Shown in pieces: positions 311 through 47,968 of a DNA stretch of 64,000 bases (its first letter is position 1; every line of letters begins with the position of its first letter). Position numbers and translations under genes: made by a program. The notes beneath the pieces were generated by a model that was not told where the DNA came from, ran no database searches, and was given only the letters and a program-made list of their open reading frames with translations. This DNA is from Armatimonadota bacterium. GTDB taxonomy: Bacteria > Sysuimicrobiota > Sysuimicrobiia > Sysuimicrobiales > Sysuimicrobiaceae. The stretch is from NCBI GenBank assembly GCA_031432545.1, contig JAVKGX010000001.1, forward strand, positions 194,411 to 258,410, written 5' to 3'.

Positions 311-316
311 TATAAT
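311..316 (+). promoter_or_regulatory. Consensus -10 box (TATAAT) placed for a leaderless transcript
   Basis: A perfect TATAAT lies exactly 7 bases before the GTG at 323. No good -35 is seen 17 bases upstream. There is no Shine-Dalgarno sequence between box and GTG, so transcription would start at or within a base of the start codon. Confidence 0.65.
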
Positions 317-322
317 GTTCCC

Positions 323-595
323 GTGCGCGGCCAGCGGCTTCCCGGCCAGGACCTCGTGGACGCGGGGCTCGCCGACCTGGAGCGCGGCGTCGAGTCGGTG
401 CCCGCGCTGCTGGTCTCCATCGGTGCCCCTCGGCTGCGGCGCATCGGCTTTTCGATCCCCACGACCATCCCCTCGCCGGAGCGCCGGCTGTACGAACGGC
501 TGGCGGCCGAGGATCCCGATTCGGCGCACTCGCGCTACAACGCCCTACTACGCCGTCTCGTCAGCTTCGAGCGGGCCGCGGAGTGCGCCAGGTAG
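323..595 (+). CDS. Small protein partner of the downstream nucleotidyltransferase
   Basis: About 90 residues, soluble, rich in Leu, Arg and Glu, with no known motif I can name. The GTG at 323 is chosen because a perfect TATAAT ends 7 bases before it, and because codons further upstream are antisense-like and GC-random. Its last 13 bases overlap the start of the nucleotidyltransferase at 583, so the two are translationally coupled. Short gene plus minimal nucleotidyltransferase is the layout of MNT-type antitoxin/toxin or AbiE-like modules. This partner does not visibly match HEPN or AbiEi, so the toxin-antitoxin reading is only inference. Confidence 0.6.
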   Translation: MRGQRLPGQDLVDAGLADLERGVESVPALLVSIGAPRLRRIGFSIPTTIPSPERRLYERLAAEDPDSAHSRYNALLRRLVSFERAAECAR

Positions 596-1107
596 CCGAC
601 GCCGCGCGCATCCGTGCGTTCATGCGCGCATTGGGCCGCGCATCCGATGAGGAGGCGCGCGTGTACTTCACCGGCGGTGCCACCGCGGTGCTGATCGGCT
701 GGCGCGCGTCCACGATCGATGTGGACATCCGGATCGTGCCGGAGGTCGACTCGGTGTTTCGGGCCATCCCCAAGATCAAGGAAGAACTGCGCATCAACGT
801 CGAGCTCGCCTCGCCCGAGGACTTCATCCCCGTGCGGCCGGGGTGGGAGGACCGCAGCCCGTTCGCTGCGCGGGAGGGTCGCCTGTGGTTTCACCACTTC
901 GATCCGTACGCACAGGCGTTGGCGAAGATCGAACGGGGGCACGCTCAGGACGTCGAGGATGTCCGCGCGATGATCCGCCTCGGGCTAGTGGACCCGGCTG
1001 GCCTGCGGGCCTACTTTGCAGAAATCCAGCCCCGCCTCTATCGGTACCCAGCCGTGGACGCCACGAGCTTTGGGCGGGCCGTCGACGACTTCCTCGCAGA
1101 GCTGTGA
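583..1107 (+). CDS. DUF6036-like nucleotidyltransferase
   Basis: 174 residues. Residues 28-50 carry the nucleotidyltransferase signature: a Gly-Gly pair (G31, G32) in a turn, followed about 14 residues later by D46-x-D48, the metal-binding carboxylates of the polymerase-beta fold. The length and the C-terminal helical half fit the DUF6036/AbiEii-like family of stand-alone nucleotidyltransferases, which are often found with a small partner gene. It starts with GTG inside the stop region of the 90-residue gene (13-base overlap). The substrate is unknown. A role in a toxin-antitoxin or tRNA-modifying module is plausible but not shown. Confidence 0.7.
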   Translation: MRQVADAARIRAFMRALGRASDEEARVYFTGGATAVLIGWRASTIDVDIRIVPEVDSVFRAIPKIKEELRINVELASPEDFIPVRPGWEDRSPFAAREGRLWFHHFDPYAQALAKIERGHAQDVEDVRAMIRLGLVDPAGLRAYFAEIQPRLYRYPAVDATSFGRAVDDFLAEL

Positions 1108-1131
1108 CGGCCGCGTAGGTCTCTCGCCCGG

Positions 1132-1226
1132 TTGACGTTGCGCCGGCACGGAGCGATGCTGGCACCATGACAGCGGGCAGGCGGCGCCGATTGACAAACC
1201 GGCGGGTGCCTGCCGTCGGGCGTTGA
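1132..1226 (+). promoter_or_regulatory. Promoter and possible 19-codon leader peptide
   Basis: TTGACG (1132-1137), 17 bases, then GATGCT (1155-1160) make a reasonable promoter. Six bases later an ATG at 1167 opens a 19-codon, Arg-rich reading frame that stops at 1224-1226, three bases before the ATG of the next gene. That gene has no ribosome site of its own, so reinitiation from this leader would explain its translation. The leader could also be chance. Confidence 0.35.
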
Positions 1227-1229
1227 TCC

Positions 1230-1679
1230 ATGCGGCTGCCCTACCGGGAGTGGGACGAGGACTTCGAGGTGTTCGGCGTCGTCTACCGGTTTGCCTTCCG
1301 GGGCCCGGTCGAGGACCCGCCGCGCTGGGAAGTCCGGGTGTTCGACGCGGCGGGCGAGGCCGCGGTGCCCGGGGTTGTGCGGGGGAAGACCGAGGACGAC
1401 GCTCGATGGCGCGCCGAAGAAGCGATCCAGACATGGGCTGCGGTGCGCCGCCTGCACGCGGTCGCCTCACGCGTCGCGGATCGGATCGCCCCGGGCTCAG
1501 AGGTGTTGCTGAGCGAGCGGGCGACCGAGATGGAGGTGGAGCTGATCGGCGGCTGGGCGCTGGGGGCACCGTTGCTTCTCGATCGGGACGACGTGCTCGA
1601 TCCCGATCGAACCGAGGAAGAGTGGGAGGCGTGGATCGAGGCACACCTCCTGGAGCACGCGGTGCAGACGAGCGGGTAG
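1230..1679 (+). CDS. Hypothetical acidic protein
   Basis: 149 residues, acidic and Trp-rich, with no signal peptide or membrane segment and no motif I recognise. The N-terminal 50 residues look like a small beta-rich unit and the middle (about 55-80) like a helix. No Shine-Dalgarno precedes the ATG, which is why coupling to the short upstream reading frame is proposed. The gene is followed 14 bases later by another small gene on the same strand, so they are probably co-transcribed. The reading is based on length, codon pattern and position only. Confidence 0.55.
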   Translation: MRLPYREWDEDFEVFGVVYRFAFRGPVEDPPRWEVRVFDAAGEAAVPGVVRGKTEDDARWRAEEAIQTWAAVRRLHAVASRVADRIAPGSEVLLSERATEMEVELIGGWALGAPLLLDRDDVLDPDRTEEEWEAWIEAHLLEHAVQTSG

Positions 1680-1693
1680 ACGACGGGGAGACC

Positions 1694-1846
1694 GTGACCC
1701 GGCGCGAGAAGACGAAGCTCCCGCGGCGCGTCGCGCTGTTCGACGGCGTCGGCGCGCGTGCCCTGGGCCGGATCGCCGACTCACTGCCGGACGACCTGCG
1801 CCAGGTGTTCTTGGACAGCCCGCGGGCCGCGATCCTCCGCGGGTGA
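1694..1846 (+). CDS. Small basic protein of 50 residues
   Basis: A 50-codon frame starting at GTG with GGGGAG three bases upstream, 14 bases after the preceding stop. The product has a basic N-terminus followed by an amphipathic-looking helix ending near the C-terminus. I know no family for it. Its support is the ribosome site and the operon spacing; it could be a chance frame. Confidence 0.35.
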   Translation: MTRREKTKLPRRVALFDGVGARALGRIADSLPDDLRQVFLDSPRAAILRG

Positions 1847-1918
1847 GCCGACGAGCGTCGCCTTCGGGCTCGGTGCGCGGGAGGCGTCGGCCGACGACCG
1901 GGATTGGAGGTGCTCGTC

Positions 1919-2398
1919 GTGGTCGCACCGCAAGCCGTTCGCCGTCACCTGCTGTGGTTGTTGCGCGGAGGCGACGCCCACGCCAGCTTCGACCGCGCAG
2001 TACGGGGCCTGCCGGTGCGTCTGCACGGGGTACGCCCCGCCGGCCTGCCGTACTCACCGTGGGGACTGATCGAGCACATGCGCACCGCGCAGTGGGACAT
2101 CCTTGAGTTCACCCGCAACCCCGATCACCGGTCCCCTCCGTGGCCGGCCGGCTACTGGCCGAGTGAACCCGCCCCCGCGGACGTCGACGCATGGCGTCGG
2201 AGCGTGGCTGCGTTCCGCGCCGATCTTCGGGCGATGCAGCACTTGGTCGCCGATCCCGCCACCGATCTGTTCGCGCCGATCCCCCACGGCCAAGGGCAGA
2301 CGGTTCTGCGCGAGGCGCTCTTGGTCGCCAACCACAACGCCTACCACGTCGGGCAGCTGATCGTCGTCCGCCGCTTGCTGGGCGCGTGGGCGGACTGA
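1919..2398 (+). CDS. DinB-like family protein
   Basis: 159 residues. The sequence has the DinB/YfiT four-helix-bundle pattern: an N-terminal helix with a conserved His, a central segment ending in a GLIEH-type motif (a His about 40 residues in), and a final helix with a N-H-N-A-Y-H-x-G-Q motif, giving the usual three-histidine metal site. Members include metal-dependent thiol transferases and many uncharacterised proteins induced by stress. GTG 1919 is preferred because GGAGG lies 8 bases upstream. The earlier TTG at 1904 lies too close to that site to use it. Confidence 0.75.
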   Translation: MVAPQAVRRHLLWLLRGGDAHASFDRAVRGLPVRLHGVRPAGLPYSPWGLIEHMRTAQWDILEFTRNPDHRSPPWPAGYWPSEPAPADVDAWRRSVAAFRADLRAMQHLVADPATDLFAPIPHGQGQTVLREALLVANHNAYHVGQLIVVRRLLGAWAD

Positions 2399-2476
2399 GC
2401 GCCCGGCTGCTGCGGCGCCGAGGGAATCGGATGGCAGGCGGTCGGGGCGCCACCTCGAGTTCACCGTCGGCGTCGT

Positions 2477-2986
2477 TCAGATGAGCCCGGCGAGGGCGCT
2501 GGGCAGCTGCGCCTGGTGATCGAGGGTGCGGCAGTCGAACAAGGGGTGCACGGACAGGACGTGCTCCGTGACGTTTCCCGCGCGGTGCAGGTAGACGACG
2601 GGACGGTGTTGGCCGTGCGCGTCGGTCTCCTGGACGATCGCGACTGCGTCGGGCCCCGGCGCGTCGACGAAGTGCTGCAGAGGCACGATCCCCTCGTCGC
2701 AGATCCCGTGCGGGCCGAACGAGACCGCCCGGGCGAGGTAGCCCCTCTGGCCCCACAGTTCGGCGGCCTCGGTGACCTCGAGGAGCAGGTAGAGCACCAC
2801 TTCCTCGGCCCTCAGCGAGCGCCGTGCGGGCTCGATCCCAAAGTGCGTGCGCACGATGTGCTCGGCCATCGGCGAGGGGGCAAAGTCCAAGGAGGAATAC
2901 GACGCCACCACCCGAATTGCCCGTTGCCGGGCCGTTGCCCGGCCAGGGGCGGGCAGGGGGAACGGTCGTCTGCCCAAGGAAGTCAT
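2477..2986 (-). CDS. Hypothetical protein
   Basis: Up to 169 residues if it starts at 2986. The first 25 residues are low-complexity (Pro, Arg, Ala) and coincide with a GC-rich inverted repeat near 2925-2945, so the true start may be GTG 2911 or the internal ATG that begins M-A-E-H. The body looks like a compact alpha/beta domain with no motif I can place. It stands alone between two plus-strand genes. Function unknown. Confidence 0.5.
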   Translation of the reverse strand: MTSLGRRPFPLPAPGRATARQRAIRVVASYSSLDFAPSPMAEHIVRTHFGIEPARRSLRAEEVVLYLLLEVTEAAELWGQRGYLARAVSFGPHGICDEGIVPLQHFVDAPGPDAVAIVQETDAHGQHRPVVYLHRAGNVTEHVLSVHPLFDCRTLDHQAQLPSALAGLI

Positions 2987-3053
2987 TGACAGCGAGGCGG
3001 CCTACGCTGGTTGACTGGCCGGTACGCTGGCGGAGCCAGCGCTGATCGCGAAG

Positions 3054-3239
3054 ATGGAGAACGCGGGCTTCGTGCGCGTGGAGGCGGTCGGTAACCGCGT
3101 GACGCTGGACAAGACCCGGCTCCGCCTGTACCCGCTGTTCACGGAGGAGTTCTTGGACTGGCTGTTCGACCAGTTCGGCTGTGCGTCACCCATCTACACG
3201 GTCCACCTGCGCGGGATCCGTCCGGTGCAAGGGGGGTAG
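3054..3239 (+). CDS. Short frame, possible C-terminal remnant of a larger protein
   Basis: 61 residues from ATG 3054. The frame stays open and protein-like upstream to 3015, where an in-frame TGA closes it, so the natural protein seems to have been longer. It reads like the tail of an enzyme domain, with alternating strands and an aromatic-rich helix. No ribosome site lies before the ATG. It may be a gene remnant rather than a working gene. Confidence 0.35.
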   Translation: MENAGFVRVEAVGNRVTLDKTRLRLYPLFTEEFLDWLFDQFGCASPIYTVHLRGIRPVQGG

Positions 3240-3293
3240 GACCGCTGGGGCGATCACAACGGAGTGCGAGCACGCGCGGCGCCGGGCTGCCTG

Positions 3294-4235
3294 CTACCCG
3301 CCGCTGCGCTGTCCCTGTGTGCGGTGGCGTTCGAAGTACCGGATGAACCCCGCGACGTTCATTTGGTAGTTGGCCGCTATCTCGTGCCGTTCGGCGGCAT
3401 CGGACCCGCACGCCGCCTCCACCTGCGGTTGCATGTGCGCCCGCATGCGCGCGACCAAGGACTCGAGGCTTTCCCCCGCTTCCCACCCCGGATACAGGAC
3501 CTCCGAGAACTCGCGCAACCGACGGCGCATCTGTGAGAGCACTTCGCGCGGGTCTTCACGCACCCCGAAGTGCGTGAGGCACAGCCGGCGCGCGCGCAAC
3601 TCCTCAAGCCGGTCCAGCGTTCGCGTCCACGCCTCCAGGTCCAGTTCGGGCGGTGGTGTGGGCGGCCGGACGTAGTCGCATCCGGGCAACGCCACGCCGG
3701 CTGCATCTCCCGTATACGCCGCGCCCGATGTCTCCTCCCAGTACACGTGGTGGTGGTTGGCGTGCCCGGGGGTGTCCACGGCCCGCAGGGTCCGACCGGC
3801 GACCGTGAGCGTAGCCCCGTCGCCGACTGAGACGACGCGGTCGGCCGGAACCGGCGCCACCTCCCCCCACAGCGCGTCCATGTCGTCTCCGTAGATCCGC
3901 CGCGCGCTGCGCAAAAGGCGGGAGGGATCTACAAGATGGGGTGCGCCAACGGGGTGGACGAAGACTTTCAGGTTGGGGTTGCGCCGCACAAGCACACCGG
4001 CCGCCCCCGCGTGATCGAGGTGGATGTGGGTGACCACCAACGCGCCGAGGTCACCGATTCCCAACCCAACTTCCGCCAAGGCCGCACCCAGCGCATCCAG
4101 GCAGGATGCGGGGCCGGTCTCGATCAGCGCGGGCGGATCGCCCAACAGGAGGTAGCAGCCGATGACCTGGGCGCGCCCCAGGAAGAACAGATCGATGAGC
4201 ACCGTCCGGTCGTCGATCCGATAGCTACGCTGCAC
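3294..4235 (-). CDS. MBL-fold metallo-hydrolase
   Basis: 313 residues. The metallo-beta-lactamase signature H70-x-H72-x-D74-H75 is intact. A further metal-ligand His lies in a T-P-G-H-x-N-H motif near residue 155, and the bridging Asp in a Y-T-G-D-A motif near 175. The C-terminal third is helical and probably shapes the substrate pocket, as in glyoxalase II-like and lactonase-like members. The substrate cannot be told from sequence. Start is GTG at 4235 behind GGGAGGG. It lies 48 bases downstream of the Nudix gene on the same strand, so the two may form an operon. Confidence 0.85.
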   Translation of the reverse strand: MQRSYRIDDRTVLIDLFFLGRAQVIGCYLLLGDPPALIETGPASCLDALGAALAEVGLGIGDLGALVVTHIHLDHAGAAGVLVRRNPNLKVFVHPVGAPHLVDPSRLLRSARRIYGDDMDALWGEVAPVPADRVVSVGDGATLTVAGRTLRAVDTPGHANHHHVYWEETSGAAYTGDAAGVALPGCDYVRPPTPPPELDLEAWTRTLDRLEELRARRLCLTHFGVREDPREVLSQMRRRLREFSEVLYPGWEAGESLESLVARMRAHMQPQVEAACGSDAAERHEIAANYQMNVAGFIRYFERHRTQGQRSGG

Positions 4236-4283
4236 GGCCCTCCCTCGGATTTGCCGGCCATTCGGACGGCTCTCACAGGTCGG

Positions 4284-4817
4284 TCACCACGGCCCGAAGA
4301 CCACTTCGCTGCGCGCGGCGTCCGGCACCCGCCGCGCCGTGCCGCCCGACAGCGGCGGAAGCGCGTCGAGCGGGAAGAACGCGGCCTGGGCGACCTCCGG
4401 GTTGCGCCAGGCGGGTTCCTGGGCCACAGCCACCGCGCGGAACAAGAACAGGTGGTCGTGCTTGTACTCCCGCGCGGCGTAGTAGACGCCGATGAGTCCC
4501 GTGGGCCGGATGCGCACACCGCACTCCTCCCACACCTCCCGGATTGCGGCTTCGATCGTCGACTCCCGCCGCTTCACGTGACCGCCGGGCAGGTGCCACC
4601 GCTCCGGCTCCGGGCCGTAGGTGTGGCGGACGAGCAACAGGTGGCCGTCCCGCTCGACCCACACCTTCACGCTGATCGCAACAGGCTGTACCACCCACCA
4701 GTAGAGCCCGGCCAGCGCGCGGACCGCTCGCATGAGCAGGGTGGTGACAGCGTGGCGCACCGGGCCGCGTTCCCCCCTGGATGCCGGCCCGGATCGAGTC
4801 GGTTGCGGTGGAGTCAT
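4284..4817 (-). CDS. Nudix hydrolase
   Basis: 177 residues. The full Nudix box is present: G79-x5-E85-x7-R93-E94-x2-E97-E98-x-G100, the magnesium-binding site that cleaves nucleoside-diphosphate-linked substrates. About 45 residues precede the domain; residues 28-48 are hydrophobic and Trp-rich and could associate with membrane. No Shine-Dalgarno precedes the ATG. A TAGACT lies 9 bases upstream, suggesting a one-to-three-base leader. Substrate unknown. It is likely co-transcribed with the MBL-fold hydrolase that follows. Confidence 0.85.
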   Translation of the reverse strand: MTPPQPTRSGPASRGERGPVRHAVTTLLMRAVRALAGLYWWVVQPVAISVKVWVERDGHLLLVRHTYGPEPERWHLPGGHVKRRESTIEAAIREVWEECGVRIRPTGLIGVYYAAREYKHDHLFLFRAVAVAQEPAWRNPEVAQAAFFPLDALPPLSGGTARRVPDAARSEVVFGPW

Positions 4818-4826
4818 CCTGGCCGC

Positions 4827-4832
4827 AGTCTA
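4827..4832 (-). promoter_or_regulatory. -10 box (TAGACT) nine bases before the Nudix start
   Basis: TAGACT on the minus strand ends 9 bases before ATG 4817. A TTGGCG lies 18 bases further upstream (4851-4856). This fits a promoter giving an almost leaderless transcript. Confidence 0.45.
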
Positions 4833-5535: not shown

Positions 5536-7394
5536 TTTGTCAGATAATACGGTACATCGGCCAAGACCTTGTAGCGGCGCCCTCTGCGCTGGCCGAACAG
5601 CAGCGCGAACTTCAGCATCATGGCCGTCTGGTTGTGCAGCAAGTTGTGCCACCACTTGCGGGGTACGAACTCCGGCAACACGATGGTGACCGCCGTGTCG
5701 GGTCCCGCTTCACGGTGGATCTGGTCTAGGTACAGGAGGATCGGCCCGACGACTGAACGGTAGGGTGAGGGCAGCACGACCAGCGGTACGTCGGTCACCC
5801 ACCGTTCCCACTTCTGTTCGATCTCCTCGCGCTTGGCTGCGTCGGTTTCCACGTACACGGCGGTCACATCGTCGCTGATGGCCTTCGCGTAGCGGAGCGC
5901 CTCCAGGACGCCGCGGTGCACGTTGTTGATGGGGACGATGACCTTGTGGGCTCGGAACGGCCTGGGGAGTCGGGCATGCTCCAGCGACAGCTGGCGTCGG
6001 ACGTCGTCGTAGTGATGGTGGACAGCACGCATCATCAGCACGAACAGCGGGATCACGACGACGGTGATCCACGCGCCCTCGGTGAACTTGGCGATGGCGA
6101 CGACGATGGTCACGGCGCCGGTGACGAAGGCGCCGAATGCGCTGATCGGCATCTTGAACCGCCACCCCGGCGGCCGCTGCGTCAGCCACAGGCGCACCAT
6201 CCCGGCCTGCGACAGCGTGAACGAGACGAACACGCCGACCATGTACAGGGGGATCAGCTGGTGCGTGTCGGCGTGGAAGACGACCAACAGCACGACCGCG
6301 CCCAGGCCCAGCAATAGGATGCCGTTGGCGAAGACCAGGCGGTCGCCCAGGTTGCTCAGCTGGCGCGGCAGGAAGCGATCTCGGGCGAGGATCGAGGCCA
6401 GGCGCGGGAATCCGGCGTATGCGGTGTTGGCGGCCAGCACTAGGATCATCGCCGTGGCGGCCTGGACGGCGTAGTAGAGCCATCCCGTACCGAAGACGTG
6501 GCGGGCGATCTGGGAGACGACGGTCTCGGTCTCCCTAGGCAACACGCCGAGGTGGCTGGCGAGGAAGCTCACGCCGAAGAACAGGGAGCCCAGTAGCGCC
6601 ACCATGACGACGAGCACCCGGCTGGCGTTGCGGGCTTCGGGCGGGTAGAACTCGGGCACGCCGTTGCTGACGGCCTCGATGCCCGTCAGCGCTGTGGAGC
6701 CGGAGGCGAACGCCCGCAGCACCAGCAGCAGCGAGAGCGCCTGAACGGGGCCGACTTCCTCCGACGGCCCCGGGGCTGGCGTCAGCTCGCCCCGCAGCGC
6801 GGCCACTACCCCGACGACGACCGTGCCGCCGAACGTTAACAGGTACAGGTAGGTCGGGATCGAAAAGATGGTCCCCGACTCCCTAACGCCGCGGAGGTTG
6901 ATGATCGTGATGACTGCGACGAGGACCGCGGCCAGGTCCAGCCGCAGCGGGAACAGCGCGGGCAAGGCGGACGTGATCGCGGCCGTGGCCGCGGACACGC
7001 TCACGGCTACGGTGAGCACGTAGTCGGTGAGCAGCGCGGCGGCGGCGACCAGGGCTGGCGCGACCCCGAGGTTCTCGCGGGCGACGACGTACGCGCCACC
7101 GCCCGAGGGATAGGCGTGGATCGTCTGATAGTAGGAGACGGCGACGACGACCAGCAGCACCACGATCGCCAGGGACACCGGCACGGTGAGGGCGAGCCCG
7201 GCCGCCCCCATCAGCACGAGTACGCGCAGGATCTCCTCGGTGGCGTACGCGCTGCTGGACATCGGGTCGGCCCCGAAGACCGCGACGCCCTTGATCTTGG
7301 TCAGCCGCTCGTGGATCAGCCGTTGGGTTTCCAGCGGGTTGCCGACGAGGACGCGCCACAGGCGAGAGGCAAGGAACCGGCGGGCTCTGAGCAC
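5532..7394 (-). CDS. kimA: KimA-like (YdaO-type) potassium:proton symporter of the KUP/APC superfamily
   Basis: 620 residues, close to the 607 of Bacillus KimA. About twelve hydrophobic segments fill residues 40-460 and a roughly 150-residue cytoplasmic tail follows. The signature around residues 41-55 resembles KimA closely, with D43 and Y50 spaced as the Asp and Tyr that bind potassium in KimA. The G-G-G-A-Y-x-V motif near 95 and L-x-D-Y-x-L-T-V-A motif near 120 also match. The GTG at 7394 is chosen because TATAAA ends 7 bases before it and TTGCAC stands a perfect 17 bases further up. The Bacillus gene is controlled by a c-di-AMP riboswitch, which cannot exist in a leaderless message. An amino-acid permease role is the alternative. 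Confidence 0.85.
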   Translation of the reverse strand: MLRARRFLASRLWRVLVGNPLETQRLIHERLTKIKGVAVFGADPMSSSAYATEEILRVLVLMGAAGLALTVPVSLAIVVLLVVVAVSYYQTIHAYPSGGGAYVVARENLGVAPALVAAAALLTDYVLTVAVSVSAATAAITSALPALFPLRLDLAAVLVAVITIINLRGVRESGTIFSIPTYLYLLTFGGTVVVGVVAALRGELTPAPGPSEEVGPVQALSLLLVLRAFASGSTALTGIEAVSNGVPEFYPPEARNASRVLVVMVALLGSLFFGVSFLASHLGVLPRETETVVSQIARHVFGTGWLYYAVQAATAMILVLAANTAYAGFPRLASILARDRFLPRQLSNLGDRLVFANGILLLGLGAVVLLVVFHADTHQLIPLYMVGVFVSFTLSQAGMVRLWLTQRPPGWRFKMPISAFGAFVTGAVTIVVAIAKFTEGAWITVVVIPLFVLMMRAVHHHYDDVRRQLSLEHARLPRPFRAHKVIVPINNVHRGVLEALRYAKAISDDVTAVYVETDAAKREEIEQKWERWVTDVPLVVLPSPYRSVVGPILLYLDQIHREAGPDTAVTIVLPEFVPRKWWHNLLHNQTAMMLKFALLFGQRRGRRYKVLADVPYYLTK

Positions 7395-7401: not shown

Positions 7402-7430
7402 TTTATACTCCTGCGTGCTGTGCCGTGCAA
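7402..7430 (-). promoter_or_regulatory. Promoter of the KimA-like gene, leaderless geometry
   Basis: Minus-strand TTGCAC (7425-7430), 17-base spacer, TATAAA (7402-7407), then 7 bases to GTG 7394. This is the best-formed promoter in the set of start-codon-proximal promoters in this window. Confidence 0.7.
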
Positions 7431-7446: not shown

Positions 7447-8172
7447 TCAAGGGGTGCGCGGCGTCCGCCGCAGGCGAGCGATCTCCGCAGGCGTGAGGGG
7501 GCGGGCCGCGCCGGGGGGCAGACCGGTCAGGCGCACCGGGCCGTAGGCCACGCGGATGAGCCGGGCGACCGGATGGCCGACGGCTTCCAGGACCCGACGG
7601 ACCTCGCGGTGACGGCCCTCGCGCAGGGTGACCCGCAGCCAGGTGTGGTTGCCGGCCGGCCGCTCGATGGCCGCCTCGATCGGCCCGGTGTGCCCGTCGG
7701 GGAGGGAGACCCCGCGCCGGAGTCGGTCGAGCGTCGCCCGCGACGGCATTCCGCGCACCCGGGCCCTGTAGGTGCGCGGGACGCCGTATCGGGGGTGCAT
7801 CAGGCGGTGGGCGAGTTCGCCGTCGTTGGTGAACAGCAGCAGCCCCTCGGAGTTCAAATCCAGCCTGCCGACGCTGAACAGGCGGGTGCGGGAAGGCACG
7901 AGGTCGCGCGCCTTCGGCCGCCCGGCGGGGTCGTGCAGGGTACTGACGTAGCCGGCCGGCTTGTGCAGCGCCCAGTACTCCAACCGCCTGGGTGGCGGCA
8001 GCGGCCTGCCGTCCACGCGCACCTCATCGTTGGCGGTGACGGTCTGCCCCAGCATCGCGGTGCGCCCGTTGACCGAAACCCGCCCGGCGCGGATCAACGC
8101 CTCGGCCGCGCGCCGAGAGGCGAGGCCCGACGCCGCGATCACTTTGTGCAATCTCTCGCCGCGGTTGCGCAT
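7447..8172 (-). CDS. rluB: RluB/RsuA-family rRNA pseudouridine synthase
   Basis: 241 residues from ATG 8172. An N-terminal S4 RNA-binding domain (about residues 6-60) is followed by the pseudouridine synthase catalytic domain. The family motif G-R-L-D-x-x-S-E-G-L-L-L near residue 95 carries the catalytic Asp. The length fits RluB/RsuA. It would modify 23S (RluB type) or 16S (RsuA type) rRNA; which one is not certain. No ribosome site precedes the ATG; a TAGGAT ends 10 bases upstream. It is divergent from the SLC13 permease gene and shares with it a near-palindromic promoter. Confidence 0.85.
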   Translation of the reverse strand: MRNRGERLHKVIAASGLASRRAAEALIRAGRVSVNGRTAMLGQTVTANDEVRVDGRPLPPPRRLEYWALHKPAGYVSTLHDPAGRPKARDLVPSRTRLFSVGRLDLNSEGLLLFTNDGELAHRLMHPRYGVPRTYRARVRGMPSRATLDRLRRGVSLPDGHTGPIEAAIERPAGNHTWLRVTLREGRHREVRRVLEAVGHPVARLIRVAYGPVRLTGLPPGAARPLTPAEIARLRRTPRTP

Positions 8173-8182
8173 CGCCGTCCGG

Positions 8183-8197
8183 ATCCTATCGTAGGAT
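8183..8197. promoter_or_regulatory. Back-to-back divergent -10 boxes
   Basis: ATCCTA-TCG-TAGGAT is a perfect inverted repeat. The right arm is TAGGAT on the plus strand, 7 bases before ATG 8205. The left arm is the same TAGGAT on the minus strand, 10 bases before ATG 8172. The two -10 boxes are only three bases apart, so RNA polymerase could open in only one direction at a time. Confidence 0.6.
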
Positions 8198-8204
8198 GGA
8201 TCCG

Positions 8205-9983
8205 ATGACACCCGAGATCACGACCCTGCTGGTCCTCCTCGCGATCGCCCTGGTCCTGTTCTCCCTTGAGTGGGTCTCCGTCGACGTCACCGCGCTGGGG
8301 TTGCTGCTGGCACTCGTCCTTACCGGTCTCGTGCCGGCGGAAGGGGCGTTTGCGGGATTCGGCAGCGACACCGTGATGACGATCCTGGGGCTGCTGGTGC
8401 TGACCGCCGCGTTGCTGCGCACCGGCGTCGTCGAGATGGTCGGCCGCGCCATCCTCCGGCGCGCCGGGGACGACGGCACCCGGCTGCTGATCCTCATCAT
8501 GGTACCGGCGGCGGCGCTGTCGGCGTTCATCAACAACACCGCGGCGACGGCGTTCTTCCTGCCGGTCGTGGTCGGCCTGGCCTCGCGGGCCCGGATGAGC
8601 CCGTCCCGGCTGCTGATGCCGCTGGCCTTTGCAACCATCCTCGCCAGCTCGGTCACACTGGTCGCCACCTCCACCAACCTCGTGGTCAGCGGTCTGCTGA
8701 CACAGTACCGGATGCCGCCGATCGGCGTGTTCGAACTGACGCCCGTGGGCCTACCGATCGCGATCGCGGGGATCGCGTACATGCTGGTCGTGGGCCGCCG
8801 CCTGATCCCCGAACGCGTCGCCGGCCGGTCGCTGACGGAGGATTTCGGACTGGGCGCCTACCTCAGCGAGGCGATCGTGCTGGCCGACTCGCCGCTGGTC
8901 GGGCGGACCCTCGCGGAGTCCGGACTGGGGCAGCGGCTCGATCTGCAGGTGGTCGGGTTGGTGCGCGACAAGAACCGCTACCAGACCCCGCGCGCGGACA
9001 CCCGCCTGCAACCGGGCGACGTGCTGCTGGTGGAGGGGGCGCGCGACGAGATCCTCAAGATCAAGGACACCACCGGTATCGAGATCAAGGCCGACGTGAA
9101 GCTGTCCGATCCGGACCTCGCACTCGGGGACGTGGCGCTGGTGGAGGCGCTTGTCGTCCCGCGTTCGCGGTTGATCGGCCGGACGCTGAAGGGCATCGGG
9201 TTTCGGGAGCGGTACGGCTTGCAGGTGCTGGCGATCAACCGGTATGGCTCTACGATCCGCCGCAAGATCAGTCAGCTCCGGCTCCAGATGGGCGATGCGT
9301 TGTTGCTGCAGGGGCCGCGTGACCGCATCGCCGCCCTCGCCAACGCCGACGCCGTGCGGGTGCTGGGCGCCGTCGGAGACGACAGGCCGAACGTCGGCCG
9401 GGCGCCGATGGCGGTCTTCGCCTTCGCGGCGGCCCTGGTGGCCGGCGCGGCGGGGGTCGTGGCGCTGCCCGCCGCTGTCCTGGCCGCAGCGGTGGTCGTC
9501 TTCGCGACGCGCTGCATCACTCCGGAGGAAGCCTACCGTGAGGTCGACTGGAAGGTGCTGATCCTGATTGGCAGCATGCTCGCCCTGGGCACGGCAATGG
9601 AGCAGACGGGCACCGCGAGGTACCTGGCGGGCCTCGTCGTCGAGGCGGCCGGCGATGCCAGCCCGCTGTGGCTTCTCAGCGGCTTCTTCGTGCTCACCGT
9701 GGTGCTCACCCAGCCGATGTCCAACCAGGCCGCAGCCGTCGTCGTCCTGCCGGTGGCCATTCAGACAGCGCTGCAGCTCGACCTCAACCCCCGCACGTTC
9801 GCTGTGGCGGTGGCGGTGGCCGCGAGCTGTTCGTACCTGACGCCGTTGGAGCCCGCATGCCTGATGGTGTACGGCCCGGGCCGATATCGATTCGTAGACT
9901 TCCTCAGGGTCGGTGGCCCGCTCACCCTCCTGGTCTACGCGATCGCGATCTTGCTGGTGCCGTTGATGTGGCCTTTCCGCTAG
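8205..9983 (+). CDS. SLC13/DASS-type permease with two TrkA-C domains
   Basis: 592 residues. About five to six membrane segments (10-205) and a second membrane block (about 400-590) flank two RCK/TrkA-C regulatory domains (about 215-290 and 300-375). The first half has the F-I-N-N-T-A-A-T-A motif and the A-T-S-T-N-L-V-V-S loop typical of the SLC13/CitMHS ion-transporter fold; the second has S-N-Q-A-A-A-V-V-V. Such proteins move anions such as sulfate or dicarboxylates, often with sodium. TrkA-C domains can bind c-di-AMP or nucleotides. ATG 8205 is chosen from TAGGAT seven bases upstream; an ATG at 8196 would overlap the promoter. Confidence 0.85.
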   Translation: MTPEITTLLVLLAIALVLFSLEWVSVDVTALGLLLALVLTGLVPAEGAFAGFGSDTVMTILGLLVLTAALLRTGVVEMVGRAILRRAGDDGTRLLILIMVPAAALSAFINNTAATAFFLPVVVGLASRARMSPSRLLMPLAFATILASSVTLVATSTNLVVSGLLTQYRMPPIGVFELTPVGLPIAIAGIAYMLVVGRRLIPERVAGRSLTEDFGLGAYLSEAIVLADSPLVGRTLAESGLGQRLDLQVVGLVRDKNRYQTPRADTRLQPGDVLLVEGARDEILKIKDTTGIEIKADVKLSDPDLALGDVALVEALVVPRSRLIGRTLKGIGFRERYGLQVLAINRYGSTIRRKISQLRLQMGDALLLQGPRDRIAALANADAVRVLGAVGDDRPNVGRAPMAVFAFAAALVAGAAGVVALPAAVLAAAVVVFATRCITPEEAYREVDWKVLILIGSMLALGTAMEQTGTARYLAGLVVEAAGDASPLWLLSGFFVLTVVLTQPMSNQAAAVVVLPVAIQTALQLDLNPRTFAVAVAVAASCSYLTPLEPACLMVYGPGRYRFVDFLRVGGPLTLLVYAIAILLVPLMWPFR

Positions 9984-17166: not shown

Positions 17167-17499
17167 GGCGACACCTCCGCCGGGTGGGAAGCAACGGTTC
17201 GCGGCCGACAGCGACAAACCCTGCCGCGCCAGGGCCGACCCTCCGCGAAACCCTGGCGAGTCAATGTCGCCGGTAGGCTTGGGGGGCCGCCGGGCTGGCC
17301 ACGGGCAGGGCCCGGACGATTGCGATCCCCCCGGATGGAGGGGGGACAACCCCCGCCCCCTGGTAGGCACTACTTGCGGGCGGATGCGGGTAGGAATGGC
17401 ACGGGTCAAGCATTGAGCGCTGTGAAACGTAACTTGCCACTTCGCCACCAGTTCCTCGGCGGGGCTGCAGACGGGGGAGCGCACGGTACCATGGTTGGC
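17167..17499 (-). other. Upstream region of ppsA with a perfect 8-base-pair hairpin
   Basis: A 333-base stretch with no gene. On the ppsA strand it holds CGCCAGGG (17251-17258) pairing with CCCTGGCG (17227-17234) across a 16-base loop, and shorter GC-rich repeats near 17280-17320. It may be a 5' untranslated regulatory structure. I see no known riboswitch consensus in it. Its right end contains the promoter of the ATPase pseudogene reading the other way. Confidence 0.35.
17487..17492 (+). promoter_or_regulatory. -10 box (TACCAT) of the ATPase pseudogene
   Basis: TACCAT ends exactly 7 bases before GTG 17500, the same geometry as the intact leaderless genes. The promoter has outlived the coding sequence. 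Confidence 0.45.
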
Positions 17500-19619
17500 G
17501 TGCGGGACTCATCCGCAAAAACTTCCAGGCCTGCCCCTGAGCTGCCTTGCCACGCCCTTTCGCCGGAGGAAGCCGCCCGGCACTTGGGCACCGACCTTCA
17601 GCAGGGGCTGCATCCATCCGAATCCGCCCGACGCGTCCGTTCCGTGGGGTCCAATGCGCTGGCGGAGACCACCGGTCCGAGCCCTATGCGCATACTGTTC
17701 GCGCAGTTCCAAAGTCCGCTGGTCGCAGTGCTTCTCGCTGCCGCGGTGGTTTCGCGGTTGCTGGGCAACACCAAGGAGGCGGTGGCGGTGGGTGTCGTGG
17801 TCGCCCTCAACACCGCGCTCGGTTTCCTGCAGGAGTATCGCGCAGAGCGGGCGATGTTTGCCCTTCGCCACTTGGTCGTGCCCAAAGCCCGGGTCCGGCG
17901 GGCGGGTCGCGTGACCGAAGTGGCGAGCAGCGAGCTGGTTCCGGGCGACTTGGTGTTGCTGGAGGCCGGAGACCGGGTGCCCGCGGACGCTCGCCTGGTG
18001 GAGGCCGTGGGGCTGCGGGTCGACGGAGCTGGGAAGCTCTCTGCCGGAAAGCGCCCACTTGGCGATCCTGGCGGCCTGCTTGTGCAACAACGCGGAAGCC
18101 GACGAGCAAGGGCAGACCATAGGGGATCCGGTGGACGCGGCTTTGGCCTCCGCGGCGTTCGGCTGGGGTTTCCGTAGGGGAGAGTGGGATGGCTTGTTGC
18201 CGCGGAGGCGCGAGTGGCCCTTCGACGGAGCTCGCAAGCGCATGACCACCGTGCACGAAGTGGCCGACGCGGACCGAGTGCGGGATCTTGACGGTGCCCG
18301 TCACTTGGTGTTCGTCAAGGGCGCACCTGAGGTGGTGCTCCCGCGCTGTGCACACATCCGGGTGCAAGGCCGTGCCGATCCGTTGGGTGAGCCATGGCGG
18401 CAGACCGTCGCGGAACGGGTGGAGGAGATGGCCCGAGGCGGGTTGCGGGTGCTGGCGCTGGCCTGCGGGTTTCCGGGGGAGCTGCCGTCCACCGAAGAGG
18501 AATCCGAAAGGGACCTGGTGTTCTTGGGCCTGGTGGCGCTGGTGGATCCGCTCCGGGCGGAGGTGCCGAAGGCAGTGGCGCGGTGCCGGCAGGCCGGGAT
18601 CCGGGTCGTGCTCCTCACCGGTGACCACCCGACCACCGCCCTCGCGGTGGCCAGGCAAGCCGGTATCGCAGACTCCCCTGCAGCACGGGTGGTCACCGGG
18701 CCCGAGTTGGACGCGCTGTCGCAGAACGAACGGTCGAGGGTTGTACGGGACGTCTCGGTGTTCGCGCGGGTGGTGCCAGAACACAAACTGATGTTGGTGG
18801 AGGCGTTGCAGGCGCGGGGAGAGGTGGTGCCGGTCACCGGGGGACGGGGTAAACGACGCTCCGGCCTTGCGTCGGGCGGAAGTGGGGGTCGCCATGGGAA
18901 GTGGCACCGAGGTGGCCAAGGAGGCTTCCGCGGTGGTGCTCTTGGACGACCACTTTGCCACCGTGGCAGCGGCCGTGGAAGAGGGGCGGGTGGTGTTCGA
19001 CAACGTGCAGAAGGTGGTCCGCTACCTGTTCACCACGAACGTGGCGGAGCTATGGACGGTCCTGGCGGCCGTAGTGGCCGGACTGCCCTTCCCCCTGTAC
19101 CCGCTACAGGTCCTGTGGATCAACCTGGTGACCGACGGGCCGCCGGCACTGGCGCTCAGCGTCGAGCCTCCGGAGGAGGCTGTGATGCGCCGGCCCCCGC
19201 GCCGCCGGGACGAGCCGCTTCTCACGGCCGGACACGCGCGGCAGGTGGTGGGGTTGGGGCTGCTCATGGGCGTGACGACCCTCGCTTTGGGTGCGTACTT
19301 CCTTGCGCGCGGACACCCCGGCTGGCAGACCGTGGTCTTCACGGCGCTGGCCGTGGCACAGTTCTTCAATGTCTACGCTGTACGCACATCTAAACCGCTG
19401 TGGCGTCCGGGATCGCGTAACCCGTCCCTCGGCGCTGCAGTAACGGTGGGCGCACTCCTGCTCGCTGCGGTGATCTACGTCCCGGGGCTTCGACCGTACT
19501 TTCAGACGTACCCACTAGGCGTCGTGGACGTAGCTGCCTGCCTGGTCCCGGGACTCGTGGCGGCGGCGGTGGTCGACGTCACCGAGTTGCGGGGCAGACG
19601 CCGAAGTGCGGAAGCATGA
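17500..19619 (+). pseudogene. Decayed calcium-type P-type ATPase
   Basis: Three fragments in three frames rebuild a cation P-type ATPase of the Ca2+/PMCA-SERCA-like class. Fragment one (17500 to about 18025) holds the N-terminal domain, the first membrane pair and the start of the actuator domain, ending at L-R-V-D. Fragment two (about 18035-18845, other frame) resumes inside the nucleotide-binding domain at C-L-C-N-N-A. So the T-G-E-S loop, membrane helix 4 and the D-K-T-G-T phosphorylation site, some 200 residues, are deleted. A second shift sits at 18836-18842: a run of five G breaks V-T-G-D-G-V-N-D-A-P, which reads correctly if one G is removed. Fragment three runs to 19619 with the C-terminal membrane helices. 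Without the catalytic Asp it cannot pump ions. An assembly error is possible for either lesion. Confidence 0.85.
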
Positions 19620-24887: not shown

Positions 24888-24893
24888 ATGCTA
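24888..24893 (-). promoter_or_regulatory. -10 box (TAGCAT) nine bases before deoC
   Basis: Minus-strand TAGCAT ends 9 bases before ATG 24878. No clear -35 is found 17 bases upstream. The message would carry at most about three untranslated bases. Confidence 0.45.
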
Positions 24894-30394: not shown

Positions 30395-31285
30395 CTACAG
30401 CAGGACGAGCTGTTCGGGTTCGGGCCGGGGCGCGAGGCATGCGCGCCTGGCGATCCGGGTCTGCGCCTTCTGCTCGGCGACAATCCGCGATACCGCCTGC
30501 CGATACGTCCGCGGTGCGTACTTGCCCGAGTACAGGCGCGCGTAGCGGTAAACCAGTTCCGGGTGGTGCTGGTGCAGGAAGTCAAAGAACGCGTCCCGCG
30601 TGACGTCGCCCAGATGCAACACGTTGTGTCCCACGAAGTGTGCGCCGTGGTCGCAAGCGGCCCGGACCACGGCCGCCAGGCTCGCCGGATGGTCGGTCAA
30701 TTCCGGGAGGATCGGCGCCAGCAGCACACCGGTGCGGATCCCTGCTGCGACGAGCCGTTCCACAACCTTCAGGCGCTGAGCCGGCGGCGCCACGGTGGGT
30801 TCGATCTGCCTGGCCAGATCCTTGTCGGTCGTGGCGACGCTCACGCACACCGTCAGCCCCGCCGCCCGCGCGAGGTCGGCCAGGACATCGAGGTCGCGCA
30901 AGATCATCGGCGACCGCGTAACGATGCTCGCGGGCGTGCGGAGGTCCCGCAGCGCCTGGAGGATCCGGCGGGTGATCCGGTAGCGGCCCTCGGCGGCCTG
31001 GTAGGGATCCGTGGCCGTCCCCACGGCCACGAGCTCTCGCTTCCAGGACTGCCGGGACAGCTCTGTGCGCAACACCTCGGGTGCGTTGACCTTGACGAAC
31101 ACCTTTGTGGCCCACTCCCCGACTCCGTCGTGGTCCAAGAACCAGTGCGTGCGGCGGGCATAGCAGAAGACACACCCGTGTGAGCATCCTCTGTACGGGT
31201 TGATGGACCACCGGAAGTCCATGCCTCGGACGCGGTTGAGCACCGACTTGACCCGGATCTCTATCACTTCAACAGGGGGCTTCAC
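30395..31285 (-). CDS. Radical-SAM protein of the Rv2578c / spore-photoproduct-lyase-like family
   Basis: 296 residues. C34-x3-C38-x2-C41 binds the 4Fe-4S cluster that cleaves S-adenosylmethionine. The N-P-Y-R-G-C motif just before it and the T-D-P-Y-Q-x-x-E motif near 115 mark the Rv2578c family, distant relatives of the spore photoproduct lyase. A DNA-repair role is often guessed for the family but is not shown. GTG 31285 is selected because TATACG ends 8 bases before it and a perfect TTGACA stands 16 bases further up. The long open frame beyond that GTG runs through the promoter and is unlikely to be translated. Confidence 0.87.
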   Translation of the reverse strand: MKPPVEVIEIRVKSVLNRVRGMDFRWSINPYRGCSHGCVFCYARRTHWFLDHDGVGEWATKVFVKVNAPEVLRTELSRQSWKRELVAVGTATDPYQAAEGRYRITRRILQALRDLRTPASIVTRSPMILRDLDVLADLARAAGLTVCVSVATTDKDLARQIEPTVAPPAQRLKVVERLVAAGIRTGVLLAPILPELTDHPASLAAVVRAACDHGAHFVGHNVLHLGDVTRDAFFDFLHQHHPELVYRYARLYSGKYAPRTYRQAVSRIVAEQKAQTRIARRACLAPRPEPEQLVLL

Positions 31286-31293: not shown

Positions 31294-31321
31294 CGTATAG
31301 CGTACATACGTTCGCTGTCAA
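31294..31321 (-). promoter_or_regulatory. Promoter of the radical-SAM gene
   Basis: Minus-strand TTGACA (31316-31321), 16 bases, TATACG (31294-31299), then 8 bases to GTG 31285. Near-leaderless geometry with a consensus -35. Confidence 0.65.
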
Positions 31322-41750: not shown

Positions 41751-41760
41751 CGGCAGGGCA

Positions 41761-41766
41761 ATTGTA
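41761..41766 (-). promoter_or_regulatory. -10 box (TACAAT) ten bases before the dehydrogenase
   Basis: Minus-strand TACAAT ends 10 bases before ATG 41750, leaving about three untranslated bases. No convincing -35. Confidence 0.45.
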
Positions 41767-44481: not shown

Positions 44482-44551
44482 GCCCGTTGGCCCTTGTCGC
44501 GTGGGAGAGCAAGTCGCGTGCCGCCGCGGGTCAGACGGGTCGTGGGAGTCT

Positions 44552-45550
44552 TCAGACGTGGAGTTCGAGGACGTCCCCGTCGGCCAGCCGGTGGTCGCGG
44601 CCGACCATCTGGCCCTGGTAGCCCTGCCCCCATAGCCGGGCGAACTTCAGGCGATCCGCGAAGTCCTTGTGGATCAACTCGGCGGCGTCTAGCACCGTCG
44701 CACCGCGCCGGAGGACGAACGGCGCGGCCAGGTCGGGTCGCCGGCCCGGCGGCTTGCTGTACACGCGCACCAGGTCGAGCATCCGAAACACCCTCGCGCG
44801 CAGCTGCTCCAACCCGTCGCCGCGCACCGCCGAGATGGGCAGCACCTCGCCGGGCAGTCGGTCTGCCAGGAGGTCGCGCAGGATCCGGAGGTTGTCGGCG
44901 GCGTCGGGCAGGTCCCACTTGTTGGCCACCACGAGCGTCCGCTTGCGGGCTCCGCGTGGGAGCGCCGGGTCCTCCTCGATCGGAGCGTCCTCCGGCATCA
45001 AGTAGACGCGGTTTGCGGGCAGCAGGCGCAGCGCGTCCTCGATGTACAGGATGCCGTCGTCGCTGCAGTCCACGACGAAGATCGCCGCGTCCGAGCCGCG
45101 GATCAGGCCGTACAGCCAGCCCTCGTCGAACTCCGGGCAGACGGGCGGCGTGTCGACCAGCTGGATCTGAATGTTCTCGAAGGGCATCATTCCGGGCAGC
45201 GGCGCGCGTGTGGTCATCGGGTAGGCGGCGACTTCAGGGCTGGCGTGGGTGAGGGCCGCCAGCAGCGACGACTTGCCGGCATTGGGCGGTCCGATGATTG
45301 CCACCTGGGCCGCGCCCTCGCGTTCGACGTGATAGAATGGCTGCGCGCGCGCTCCGCCGCGCCGCCCCGTCATCTCCTGCCGCAGCCGGGCCATGCGGCG
45401 CTTGATGTCCGCCTGCAGCTTCTCCGTGCCCTTGTGCTTGGGCACCGTACGGAGCATCTCTTCCAGCGCCTCCATCTTCTCTTGTGGGGACGCCGCCTGG
45501 CGGAACCGCTGCTCCGCAGCGAGGTACTCAGGGGTGAGATTCGCTGGCAT
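44552..45550 (-). CDS. DRG/OBG-type GTPase with TGS domain
   Basis: 332 residues. G1 is G-P-P-N-A-G-K-S-S near residue 85, G3 D-T-P-P near 130, G4 N-K-W-D near 210. A TGS domain closes the protein (about 260-332), ending in V-L-E-L-H-V. This layout matches the DRG family of ribosome-associated GTPases more than Obg. No ribosome site precedes the ATG; TATCGT ends 10 bases before it. It is divergent from the HelY-like helicase and shares the 93-base gap with it. Confidence 0.85.
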   Translation of the reverse strand: MPANLTPEYLAAEQRFRQAASPQEKMEALEEMLRTVPKHKGTEKLQADIKRRMARLRQEMTGRRGGARAQPFYHVEREGAAQVAIIGPPNAGKSSLLAALTHASPEVAAYPMTTRAPLPGMMPFENIQIQLVDTPPVCPEFDEGWLYGLIRGSDAAIFVVDCSDDGILYIEDALRLLPANRVYLMPEDAPIEEDPALPRGARKRTLVVANKWDLPDAADNLRILRDLLADRLPGEVLPISAVRGDGLEQLRARVFRMLDLVRVYSKPPGRRPDLAAPFVLRRGATVLDAAELIHKDFADRLKFARLWGQGYQGQMVGRDHRLADGDVLELHV

Positions 45551-45560
45551 TCCAAGCAAG

Positions 45561-45566
45561 ACGATA
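45561..45566 (-). promoter_or_regulatory. -10 box (TATCGT) ten bases before the GTPase
   Basis: Minus-strand TATCGT ends 10 bases before ATG 45550. Geometry identical to the rluB and dehydrogenase starts. Confidence 0.45.
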
Positions 45567-45630
45567 CAGTGCGCGGCCGGGCGGTGAACAGCAGACCGCG
45601 AACCCCGCCGCTGCGGCCCACCGGCTCGGC

Positions 45631-45636
45631 TATCAT
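45631..45636 (+). promoter_or_regulatory. -10 box (TATCAT) seven bases before the helicase
   Basis: TATCAT ends 7 bases before GTG 45644. An ATG at 45635 overlaps the box and is therefore unlikely to be the start. Confidence 0.5.
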
Positions 45637-45643
45637 GGAGACC

Positions 45644-47968
45644 GTGAGCCGACGTGCACCTGCAGGCAGGCGCGCCGTCCGCCGCGCCCCGGTCCACCCT
45701 GCGCTCAAGTCGATTTTGCGAAGGGTTGGTGCGCCCCCATCCGTGGCGTTCGAACCATCTTTGTTCCAACGGGAGGCGCTGTCGCGTCTGCGTGAAGGCG
45801 ATGTGCTCGTCGAAGCGCCGACGGGCAGCGGCAAGACCTGGATCGCGGAGGAGGCGATCCGCGAAGGGCTGCGTGCCGGACGGAGCGCGTGGTACACGAC
45901 GCCACTCAAGGCGCTGTCCAATCAGAAGTTCCGCCGCTTCCAGAACCTCTACGGGGCCGACCGTGTCGGCCTGCTGACCGGCGAGCGGAAGATCAACGCT
46001 CAGGCCCCGGTGATCGTCGCCACGACCGAGATCCTGCGCAACGCGCTGTACGACCGGGGATCGCGCACCGAAGAGTCGCAAACCGCGCAGGAAATGGATC
46101 TCGTGGTGCTGGACGAAGCCCACTACCTGAGCGATCCGGAGCGTGGCACGGCGTGGGAAGAGATCCTGATGTACGCACCGCGACGGACGCGCCTGCTCTT
46201 GCTGTCAGCCACGCTGCCCAACGCAGGCGAACTGTCCGACTGGCTGGCCGAAGCCCGCGGCCGGCGTCCGGCCGTGGTCGAGGAAACCGTGCGGCCCGTG
46301 CCGCTTTGCTTCGTGGCAGTCGATGCGCGGGGACGGTTGCTGCCGGTCGAACTGGCCGAACAGGCCTCGGCGGGTTGCAAGCGCCCGGATTGGATCGCGA
46401 GTCTCCTTGGGGCGCTGCGGGCCGCGGATCTGCTGCCGGCGATCCTGTTCTTCCCGGCGCGCCGCGACTGCGACGAGGCAGCCGCTGTGCTCGCCCGGTC
46501 GTGGGCTGGCCCGCGGGGGTCGCCGCCAGATTCCGTCGCCGGTGCGAAGCGGCTGGAGGAGCGCCAGGCGGCGTGGGCAGCGTGGACGGCCGAGTTGCCC
46601 CACCTGGCGTCCCACGCGTTCCGGGCCGGCCTGCTCGCTGCCGGCGTGGCACCCCACCACGCCGGGCACACGACGTCGTGGCGGCTGGTTGTGGAAGACT
46701 TCCTGGAGCGCGGCCTGCTGACGGCGGTGTGCGCAACGACGACCCTGGCGGCGGGGCTCGACGTGCCCGCGCGGACTGTCGTGCTGACGACGCTTGTGCG
46801 CAACAGCCCGACCGGTCCCGTCAGCCTGTCCGCCACGGAATTCCACCAGATGGCCGGCCGTGCAGGACGGCGCGGCCGCGACAAGATCGGCGTCGTCGCG
46901 CTCCCGGCCACCCGGTACGGTGAGGTCGCGGAGGCGGAATCACTGGCCGGTGCGGCGCCCGAGCCCATCCGGTCGGCCTTCACCCCGAGTTACAGCCAGG
47001 TCCTCAACTGGTTGGCCGCACGGCCCCTGGACGCCGCGCTCGCTGAACTGGACCGGTCGCTGGCGGCCTTCCAGCGCCGCGGGCAGATCGCCTCGCTGCG
47101 TGCGCAGCTCGACGCGATCCCCCCGGATCCGCTCGTCGACAGGCCGTGCGACGACCGGCTGCACACGAGGGCTCGCTACGAGCGGATGGCCGCGCGGCGC
47201 GACCGGCTGCGCCGCCTCCGCGACCCGGACGCCGCTGAGGAAGTGCGCGTGCTGACGCACGAGATGTCCGTGTGGCCGTGCGCGTGCTGCGCCGTGGCGG
47301 CCGAGTGCCTATCCACCATCGACCGTCTGCGGGCCAGAGAGCAACGCCGTCTTCGGCTGCGCCGCGAGTTGCGCGAACTGCACGGCGGGCTGCGCGAGGA
47401 GTTTGCGGCCCGCGCGCGGGTCCTGCGCGGGCTGGGCTACCTCGACGCGGAGTTCCGCCCGACCGCGTACGGACGGTGGGCCGCGCTCGTTCGCCACCCC
47501 AGGTGCATCGTCATCGTGGAACTCGTGCGCCGCAGACTGCTCCCGGCCGAGCCGGAGCGGCTGGCCGCCTACGCGGCAGCCCTGAGCAGCGAACGGGCCC
47601 CCCGCGCCGGGGACGACGCCGACCTGGCGGCCCTGGCCCGCCTGGTGGAGGGGCTGGCGGAGATCGAAGCGCACGAGGGGGTCCGGCCCGATCCGCTGGT
47701 GTCCGAGTTCAAGGCGGAGTGGGATCGGATCCGGCGCCGGCGCGTGCCGTCACCGGCCGATCGGCGGGGCTGGGCTGCGATCCAGTGGATGCGGGAAGCG
47801 GAGTTCGGTACGCTGTGTGAGGCGTGCGAGGTGGCCGAAGGGGACCTGCAGCGGATCCTGTTGCAGGCCGCCGAGGTCTGCAACCAGCTCGCCGACCTGC
47901 CCCAGCCCGGTGTCGGCGAGGTGGCGCGCGCGACGCGCGATCGCATCCTGCGGGACCCGCTGCTGTGA
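45644..47968 (+). CDS. HelY-like (Ski2/Mtr4-type) DEAD/DEAH RNA helicase
   Basis: 774 residues. Motif I A-P-T-G-S-G-K-T near 60, motif II D-E-A-H near 165, motif III S-A-T-L-P near 192, and the second RecA domain with motif VI Q-M-A-G-R-A-G-R-R-G near 405. A Cys-rich patch (C-A-C-C near 545) matches the cysteine segment of actinobacterial HelY, and a helical domain like DSHCT ends the protein. Ski2-class helicases unwind RNA for decay or processing. GTG 45644 is chosen for its seven-base distance from TATCAT. Confidence 0.85.
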   Translation: MSRRAPAGRRAVRRAPVHPALKSILRRVGAPPSVAFEPSLFQREALSRLREGDVLVEAPTGSGKTWIAEEAIREGLRAGRSAWYTTPLKALSNQKFRRFQNLYGADRVGLLTGERKINAQAPVIVATTEILRNALYDRGSRTEESQTAQEMDLVVLDEAHYLSDPERGTAWEEILMYAPRRTRLLLLSATLPNAGELSDWLAEARGRRPAVVEETVRPVPLCFVAVDARGRLLPVELAEQASAGCKRPDWIASLLGALRAADLLPAILFFPARRDCDEAAAVLARSWAGPRGSPPDSVAGAKRLEERQAAWAAWTAELPHLASHAFRAGLLAAGVAPHHAGHTTSWRLVVEDFLERGLLTAVCATTTLAAGLDVPARTVVLTTLVRNSPTGPVSLSATEFHQMAGRAGRRGRDKIGVVALPATRYGEVAEAESLAGAAPEPIRSAFTPSYSQVLNWLAARPLDAALAELDRSLAAFQRRGQIASLRAQLDAIPPDPLVDRPCDDRLHTRARYERMAARRDRLRRLRDPDAAEEVRVLTHEMSVWPCACCAVAAECLSTIDRLRAREQRRLRLRRELRELHGGLREEFAARARVLRGLGYLDAEFRPTAYGRWAALVRHPRCIVIVELVRRRLLPAEPERLAAYAAALSSERAPRAGDDADLAALARLVEGLAEIEAHEGVRPDPLVSEFKAEWDRIRRRRVPSPADRRGWAAIQWMREAEFGTLCEACEVAEGDLQRILLQAAEVCNQLADLPQPGVGEVARATRDRILRDPLL

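Follow-up and report, generated by a model that had tools for sequence, protein, structure and literature searches.

Does a run of genes whose predicted promoters lie almost against their start codons reveal a genome in which messages are generally leaderless, or a small class of such genes in a genome that otherwise relies on Shine-Dalgarno (SD) leaders? This question is raised by a 64,000-nucleotide stretch of an Armatimonadota bacterium (hereafter the window; bases 194411-258410 of the 728-kb contig JAVKGX010000001.1, called C1 here, in assembly GCA_031432545.1, a genome of 2.19 Mb in 21 contigs), in which eleven starts had been singled out as having a -10 hexamer 7-10 bases upstream and no SD site. 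The explanation that we favor, with a probability of about 0.8, is that a small class of genes, about 4-5%, carries what appear to be ordinary promoters of the housekeeping sigma factor, in which a TATNAT-like -10 box, accompanied at times by a TTGAC or TTGCAC -35 element, lies 6-10 bases before the start codon. At these promoters a sigma-A-type polymerase would start 7-10 bases past the box, so that transcripts would begin with the start codon itself or 1-4 bases ahead of it. Ribosomes would then start translation straight from the 5'-terminal ATG or GTG, with no SD site. Most genes have GGAGG leaders.

All eleven hexamers occupy the predicted place and strand (Table 1), and ten of the eleven spacings, counted exclusive of both the hexamer and the start codon, agree with the prediction; that before the start at 323 is 6 bases and not 7. 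The distribution of start codons over the spacing classes (GTG at four of the five starts assigned 7 bases, ATG at all with 10) was also borne out, as were the two -35 elements, at 7394 and 31285. The hexamers at 7394 and 31285 are not TANNNT. The absence of an SD site holds for most of the eleven, the exceptions being GGAG 3 bases from the GTG at 45644 and GGTAGG at 31285. With a functional -10 box so near the start codon, the 5' end of the message has to lie on that codon or no more than a few bases away from it, and the spacing of 6-10 bases would have this consequence at all eleven sites.

The evidence that carries the favored explanation is conservation among orthologues in related genera of the same family and order, in whose upstream regions the box frequency at other places is 0.3-1.8% per position. 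At the permease gene (7394), all five same-family orthologues have TATATA and GTG separated by exactly 7 bases (background 1.5% per position), with TTGCAC or TTGCGC at the matching -35 place. At the helicase gene (45644) the same exact 7-base distance separates TATSAT from ATG or GTG, again in five of five from the family. All five deoC (24878) orthologues have a -10-like box separated by 7-10 bases from an in-frame ATG. For the radical SAM gene (31285), five of seven orthologues place the box 6-9 bases before the start (12 and 15 bases in the other two), and the box of the P-type ATPase gene (17500) is conserved in 3/4. Thus, the proposal that some starts are leaderless or near-leaderless gains support at five of the eight loci with orthologues tested, where the box keeps the same short distance in most or all relatives. 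Spacing conserved against so low a background argues that in at least four of the eleven cases selection has maintained a working promoter arrangement; this is likely for one or two others, and at least one box is probably a chance match. This conserved minority, namely the permease, helicase, deoC, and radical SAM genes, provides clear test genes.

The remaining loci are more varied. In two of five same-family orthologues of the TGS-domain GTPase gene (45550), the box lies at 9-10 bases without an SD site, and in the other three it lies 17-18 bases away and is followed by GGAGG, so that a single family displays at this locus the switch from one mode of initiation to the other, leaderless or SD-led. 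The transporter gene at 8205 has a single close orthologue, and the sole order relative with a close orthologue of the RluB-like gene (8172) lacks this upstream arrangement. For the open reading frame at 323, the model gives a posterior of 0.53 for a leaderless start, and no orthologue was found in the 400 kb searched of the same-family relative G023.

Table 1. Predicted promoter and operator elements in the window (window coordinates).
Feature	Position	Strand	Distance or placement	Gene or remark
-10-like box TATAAT	311..316	+	6 bases from GTG 323	open reading frame of 90 amino acids without family match
-10-like box TAGACT	4827..4832	-	9 bases from ATG 4817	NUDIX gene; position check only
-10 box TATAAA	7402..7407	-	7 bases from GTG 7394	amino-acid permease gene 7394-5532; leaderless geometry
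-35 element TTGCAC	7425..7430	-	17-base spacer to TATAAA	
-10-like box TAGGAT	8183..8188	-	10 bases from ATG 8172	RluB-like pseudouridine synthase; back to back with box at 8192
-10-like box TAGGAT	8192..8197	+	7 bases from ATG 8205, or into ATG 8196	CitMHS/TrkA_C transporter
-10-like box TACCAT	17487..17492	+	7 bases from GTG 17500, or part of ATG 17491	P-type ATPase, N-terminal part
-10 box TAGCAT	24888..24893	-	9 bases from ATG 24878	deoC; near-leaderless geometry
-10 box TATACG	31294..31299	-	8 bases from GTG 31285	Rv2578c/PA0069-type radical SAM gene
LexA/SOS-type operator CGAACGTATGTACG	31301..31314	-	between -35 and -10	conserved in orthologues; same motif before lexA
-35 element TTGACA	31316..31321	-	16-base spacer to TATACG	
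-10-like box TACAAT	41761..41766	-	10 bases from ATG 41750	isocitrate/isopropylmalate dehydrogenase (IDH)
-10-like box TATCGT	45561..45566	-	10 bases from ATG 45550	TGS-domain GTPase
-10 box TATCAT	45631..45636	+	7 bases from GTG 45644	Hel308/DSHCT-like helicase gene 45644-47968

Eleven candidate starts in one 64-kb window, several of them conserved, might suggest that the genome is heavily leaderless in the manner of Deinococcus or actinobacteria (20% of genes or more) and that the window exemplifies a general rule; the original prediction had inferred a large leaderless share. However, the genome-wide counts, which cover 720 kb of contig C1 (69.5% guanine plus cytosine (GC); 660 genes), make this very improbable. 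Genes were called by coding signal alone, so that no upstream motif influenced the choice of start, with a codon-position GC filter that hardly altered the counts for this genome; expected TANNNT numbers were taken from gaps 20-59 of the same upstream regions, and 400 kb of the actinobacterium Microbispora corallina (357 genes), passed through the identical pipeline, served as a positive control. TANNNT lies 5-9 bases before 20 of the 660 starts as against 12.1 expected, or 32 against 28.8 when starts are allowed to vary, whereas Microbispora gives 29 against 7.2 (47 against 14.4 with varying starts) and a sharp peak at 6-7 bases. This count, which the original prediction had itself put forward as a check, thus reveals no large share: the excess corresponds to about 2-5% of genes here and about 18% in the control, and no excess at 6-7 bases indicative of a share of about 20% or more was found on C1.

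Leaderless shares were estimated with a fixed -10 matrix from Microbispora, because the free motif model, run with several seeds, drifts off TANNNT in both this genome and G023. The fixed matrix assigns 4.3-5.6% of genes here, as against 0.8-2.1% in shifted gap windows; over gaps 5-10 the share is 5.2-5.6%, with a likelihood gain of 343.2 versus 328-331 for the shifted windows, and the weight falls on gaps 6, 7, 9, and 10, a broader spread than in Microbispora. Among the 120 placements of T, A, and T in six columns, TAnnnT and sub-patterns of TATNAT mostly lead. Even when GA-rich, SD-like sites are pooled with -10 boxes in one model, the share reaches only 12%, which we take as an upper bound. 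Overall, about one gene in 20 (about 4-5%) would be leaderless or near-leaderless, and the genome does not appear to be leaderless-rich.

SD leaders are instead the rule in this genome, and GGAGG is dominant, being the main signal of the free two-motif model (53% of genes). The 3' end of the 16S rRNA, GGATCACCTCCTTTCT, retains an intact anti-SD sequence, which makes SD-led initiation available for the other genes. The idea that GGAGG sites set operon genes apart does not hold as a general contrast, as the modelled SD share is 54% for operon-internal genes, 53% for genes on the same strand further apart, and 50% for divergent genes. Depletion of SD sites in the first genes of transcription units was thus not found on C1 (50% divergent versus 54% operon-internal; 61% versus 85% in Microbispora), and this likeness of divergent and operon-internal genes also speaks against a heavily leaderless genome.

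The richness of the window has a simple background in that the counts of genes having TANNNT 6-10 bases before the start, taken tile by tile (64 kb each), are 0, 2, 0, 6, 1, 4, 4, 2, 3, 1, 0, and 0; the window is the densest tile, holding 6 of the 23 such genes on 720 kb, with about 2 per tile expected. Because the excess over 720 kb is small, the run of eleven reflects a dense window together with free choice of start, spacing, and hexamer; part of the run, judging from the conservation described above, is real. The leaderless-rich reading was therefore an over-extrapolation from the densest 64-kb tile, and is now corrected.

Such free choice would lead one to think that all eleven boxes could be chance TANNNT matches upstream of genes with ordinary leaders, the more so as the total excess is small, the starts at 8205, 17500, and 45644 are ambiguous, and the IDH box (41750) is kept in none of five orthologues. 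However, five of five orthologues retain the exact spacing at each of two loci, and a close one is kept at three further loci, at 60-80% protein identity and over a background near 1% per position, which renders chance improbable as an account of the whole set; it probably does account for some of the eleven, namely 41750 and perhaps 8172 and 4817. The ambiguous starts admit another explanation, since at these three sites the box runs into or touches an in-frame ATG at -9 (TANN-ATG) and the start codon itself is in doubt: translation might begin at that ATG (8196, 17491, and 45635), the box then being coding sequence and not a promoter. The coding-only gene finder did pick 8196, and the in-frame ATG at -9 is also present in the helicase orthologues. 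In the latter, however, both the TAT preceding this ATG and a second start codon, 7 bases further on, are conserved although the intervening codons vary, no SD site precedes the upstream ATG of the helicase gene, and the explanation is inapplicable to 7394, 24878, and 31285, so that we consider it doubtful, if a genuine contender at the three sites.

The small class of promoter-adjacent starts that we favor has its own difficulties, among which are the alternative starts and the unconserved IDH box just mentioned. We infer from sequence where transcription starts, which sigma factor is used, and that ribosomes initiate directly. In this genome the second motif of the free two-motif model abandons TANNNT in favor of a GA-rich word, but in Microbispora it remains TAngnT at 6-7 bases and is assigned to 18.6% of all genes, with 29% in the divergent class and 5% in the operon-internal one. 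Some permuted matrices match or beat TAnnnT here, the best being nATnnT and TnnnAT, which are sub-patterns of TATNAT, with ATnnTn as high. A scan for bipartite TTGACA/TATAAT promoters gave distances to starts that are spread out, with no peak at the start codon. Finally, among 147 reciprocal-best pairs with G023, three have a box at 6-10 bases in both members (mean of controls, 0.6), one of them weak-looking, in a pairwise survey made insensitive by varying N-terminal lengths and noisy starts.

The phenomenon as such is already known, and the conserved loci are newly described cases of it. Leaderless genes with the same geometry, marked by a TA-like signal some 10 bases upstream of the start, were recognized by the same type of inference by Zheng et al. 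(2011; PMC3160421), and the share of 4-5% found here is close to the 4.0-5.7% that they list for Chloroflexi (four of 12 genomes; their Table 2), whereas their averages of 19.2% for Actinobacteria and 39.4% for Deinococcus-Thermus are not reached. In Mycobacterium tuberculosis, 5'-end sequencing showed 26% of the genes with a primary start to be leaderless, the criterion being a transcription start no more than 5 bases from the start codon, with a TANNNT -10 element centred 7-12 bases upstream of the transcription start (Cortes et al., 2013; PMC3898074); that share was measured, whereas the few percent given here are predicted. No 5'-end mapping was found in the literature on this lineage. The suggested kinship with Deinococcus and actinobacteria is not borne out by a GyrB tree, in which the genome, its family relative G023, and the order relative G040 form a well-supported clade of their own apart from the sampled Actinomycetota and Chloroflexota; the tree does not resolve the phylum, and kinship with Actinomycetota or Chloroflexota is compatible with it.

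The promoter of the radical SAM gene (31285) carries a further signal, a LexA-type operator that is conserved in most order relatives whose upstream region was compared; in these relatives the -35/-10 spacer has the sequence CGAAC-N4-GT(T/A)CG. The same motif occurs before the genome's own lexA (two copies; the gene was confirmed by the Pfam domains PF01726 and PF00717), before gyrB, and before a WYL/DeoR-like regulator gene. As is characteristic of LexA/SOS regulon operators, the motif overlaps the promoter at the radical SAM gene, as it does at lexA, and, lying between -35 and -10, it is an operator of the type known from LexA-repressed SOS promoters (CGAAC-N4-GTTCG); LexA would repress the radical SAM gene by promoter occlusion. 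The two genes differ in that the box TATTAT of lexA is followed by a 17-base stretch with GGAGGTG before the ATG, whereas the radical SAM gene has essentially no leader, so that one operator type serves a led gene and an almost leaderless one. Tentatively, at slightly less than even odds, the radical SAM gene may be DNA-damage-inducible in this order, the SOS response releasing a leaderless message while lexA keeps its SD leader downstream of an operator and -10 box of the same kind. A search of the literature library for Rv2578c together with LexA found no match. The operator before gyrB lies at C1 position 125175, about 68 bases upstream of the called start, and gyrB would be an unusual SOS target.

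Several neighboring observations should be added. The TGS-domain GTPase gene (44552-45550) is kept in most of the order, and its promoter-to-start distance differs between genera of one family. The P-type ATPase gene beginning at 17500 is broken by frame changes into pieces at 17488-18024, 17984-18841, and 18840-18995, whereas its relatives have a single long frame, and a stretch of a relative's protein has no match here; the region 17488-18995 looks like a decayed gene or the product of assembly errors. The divergent RluB-like and CitMHS-type genes (8172-8205) are separated by 32 bases, and their TAGGAT boxes stand back to back in the near-palindrome GGATCCTATCGTAGGATGGATCC; one other such pair occurs among the 81 divergent pairs on C1 (window-relative 197467/197528). 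The RluB-like pseudouridine synthase (7447-8172) has a close match in one of 40 relatives (G028, same order, 69% identity), and was therefore probably gained by transfer or lost repeatedly; a scan across species with RluB yielded no close relative. In addition, GC content differs widely within the family, with 57% over 400 kb of G023 as compared with the 69.5% found here.

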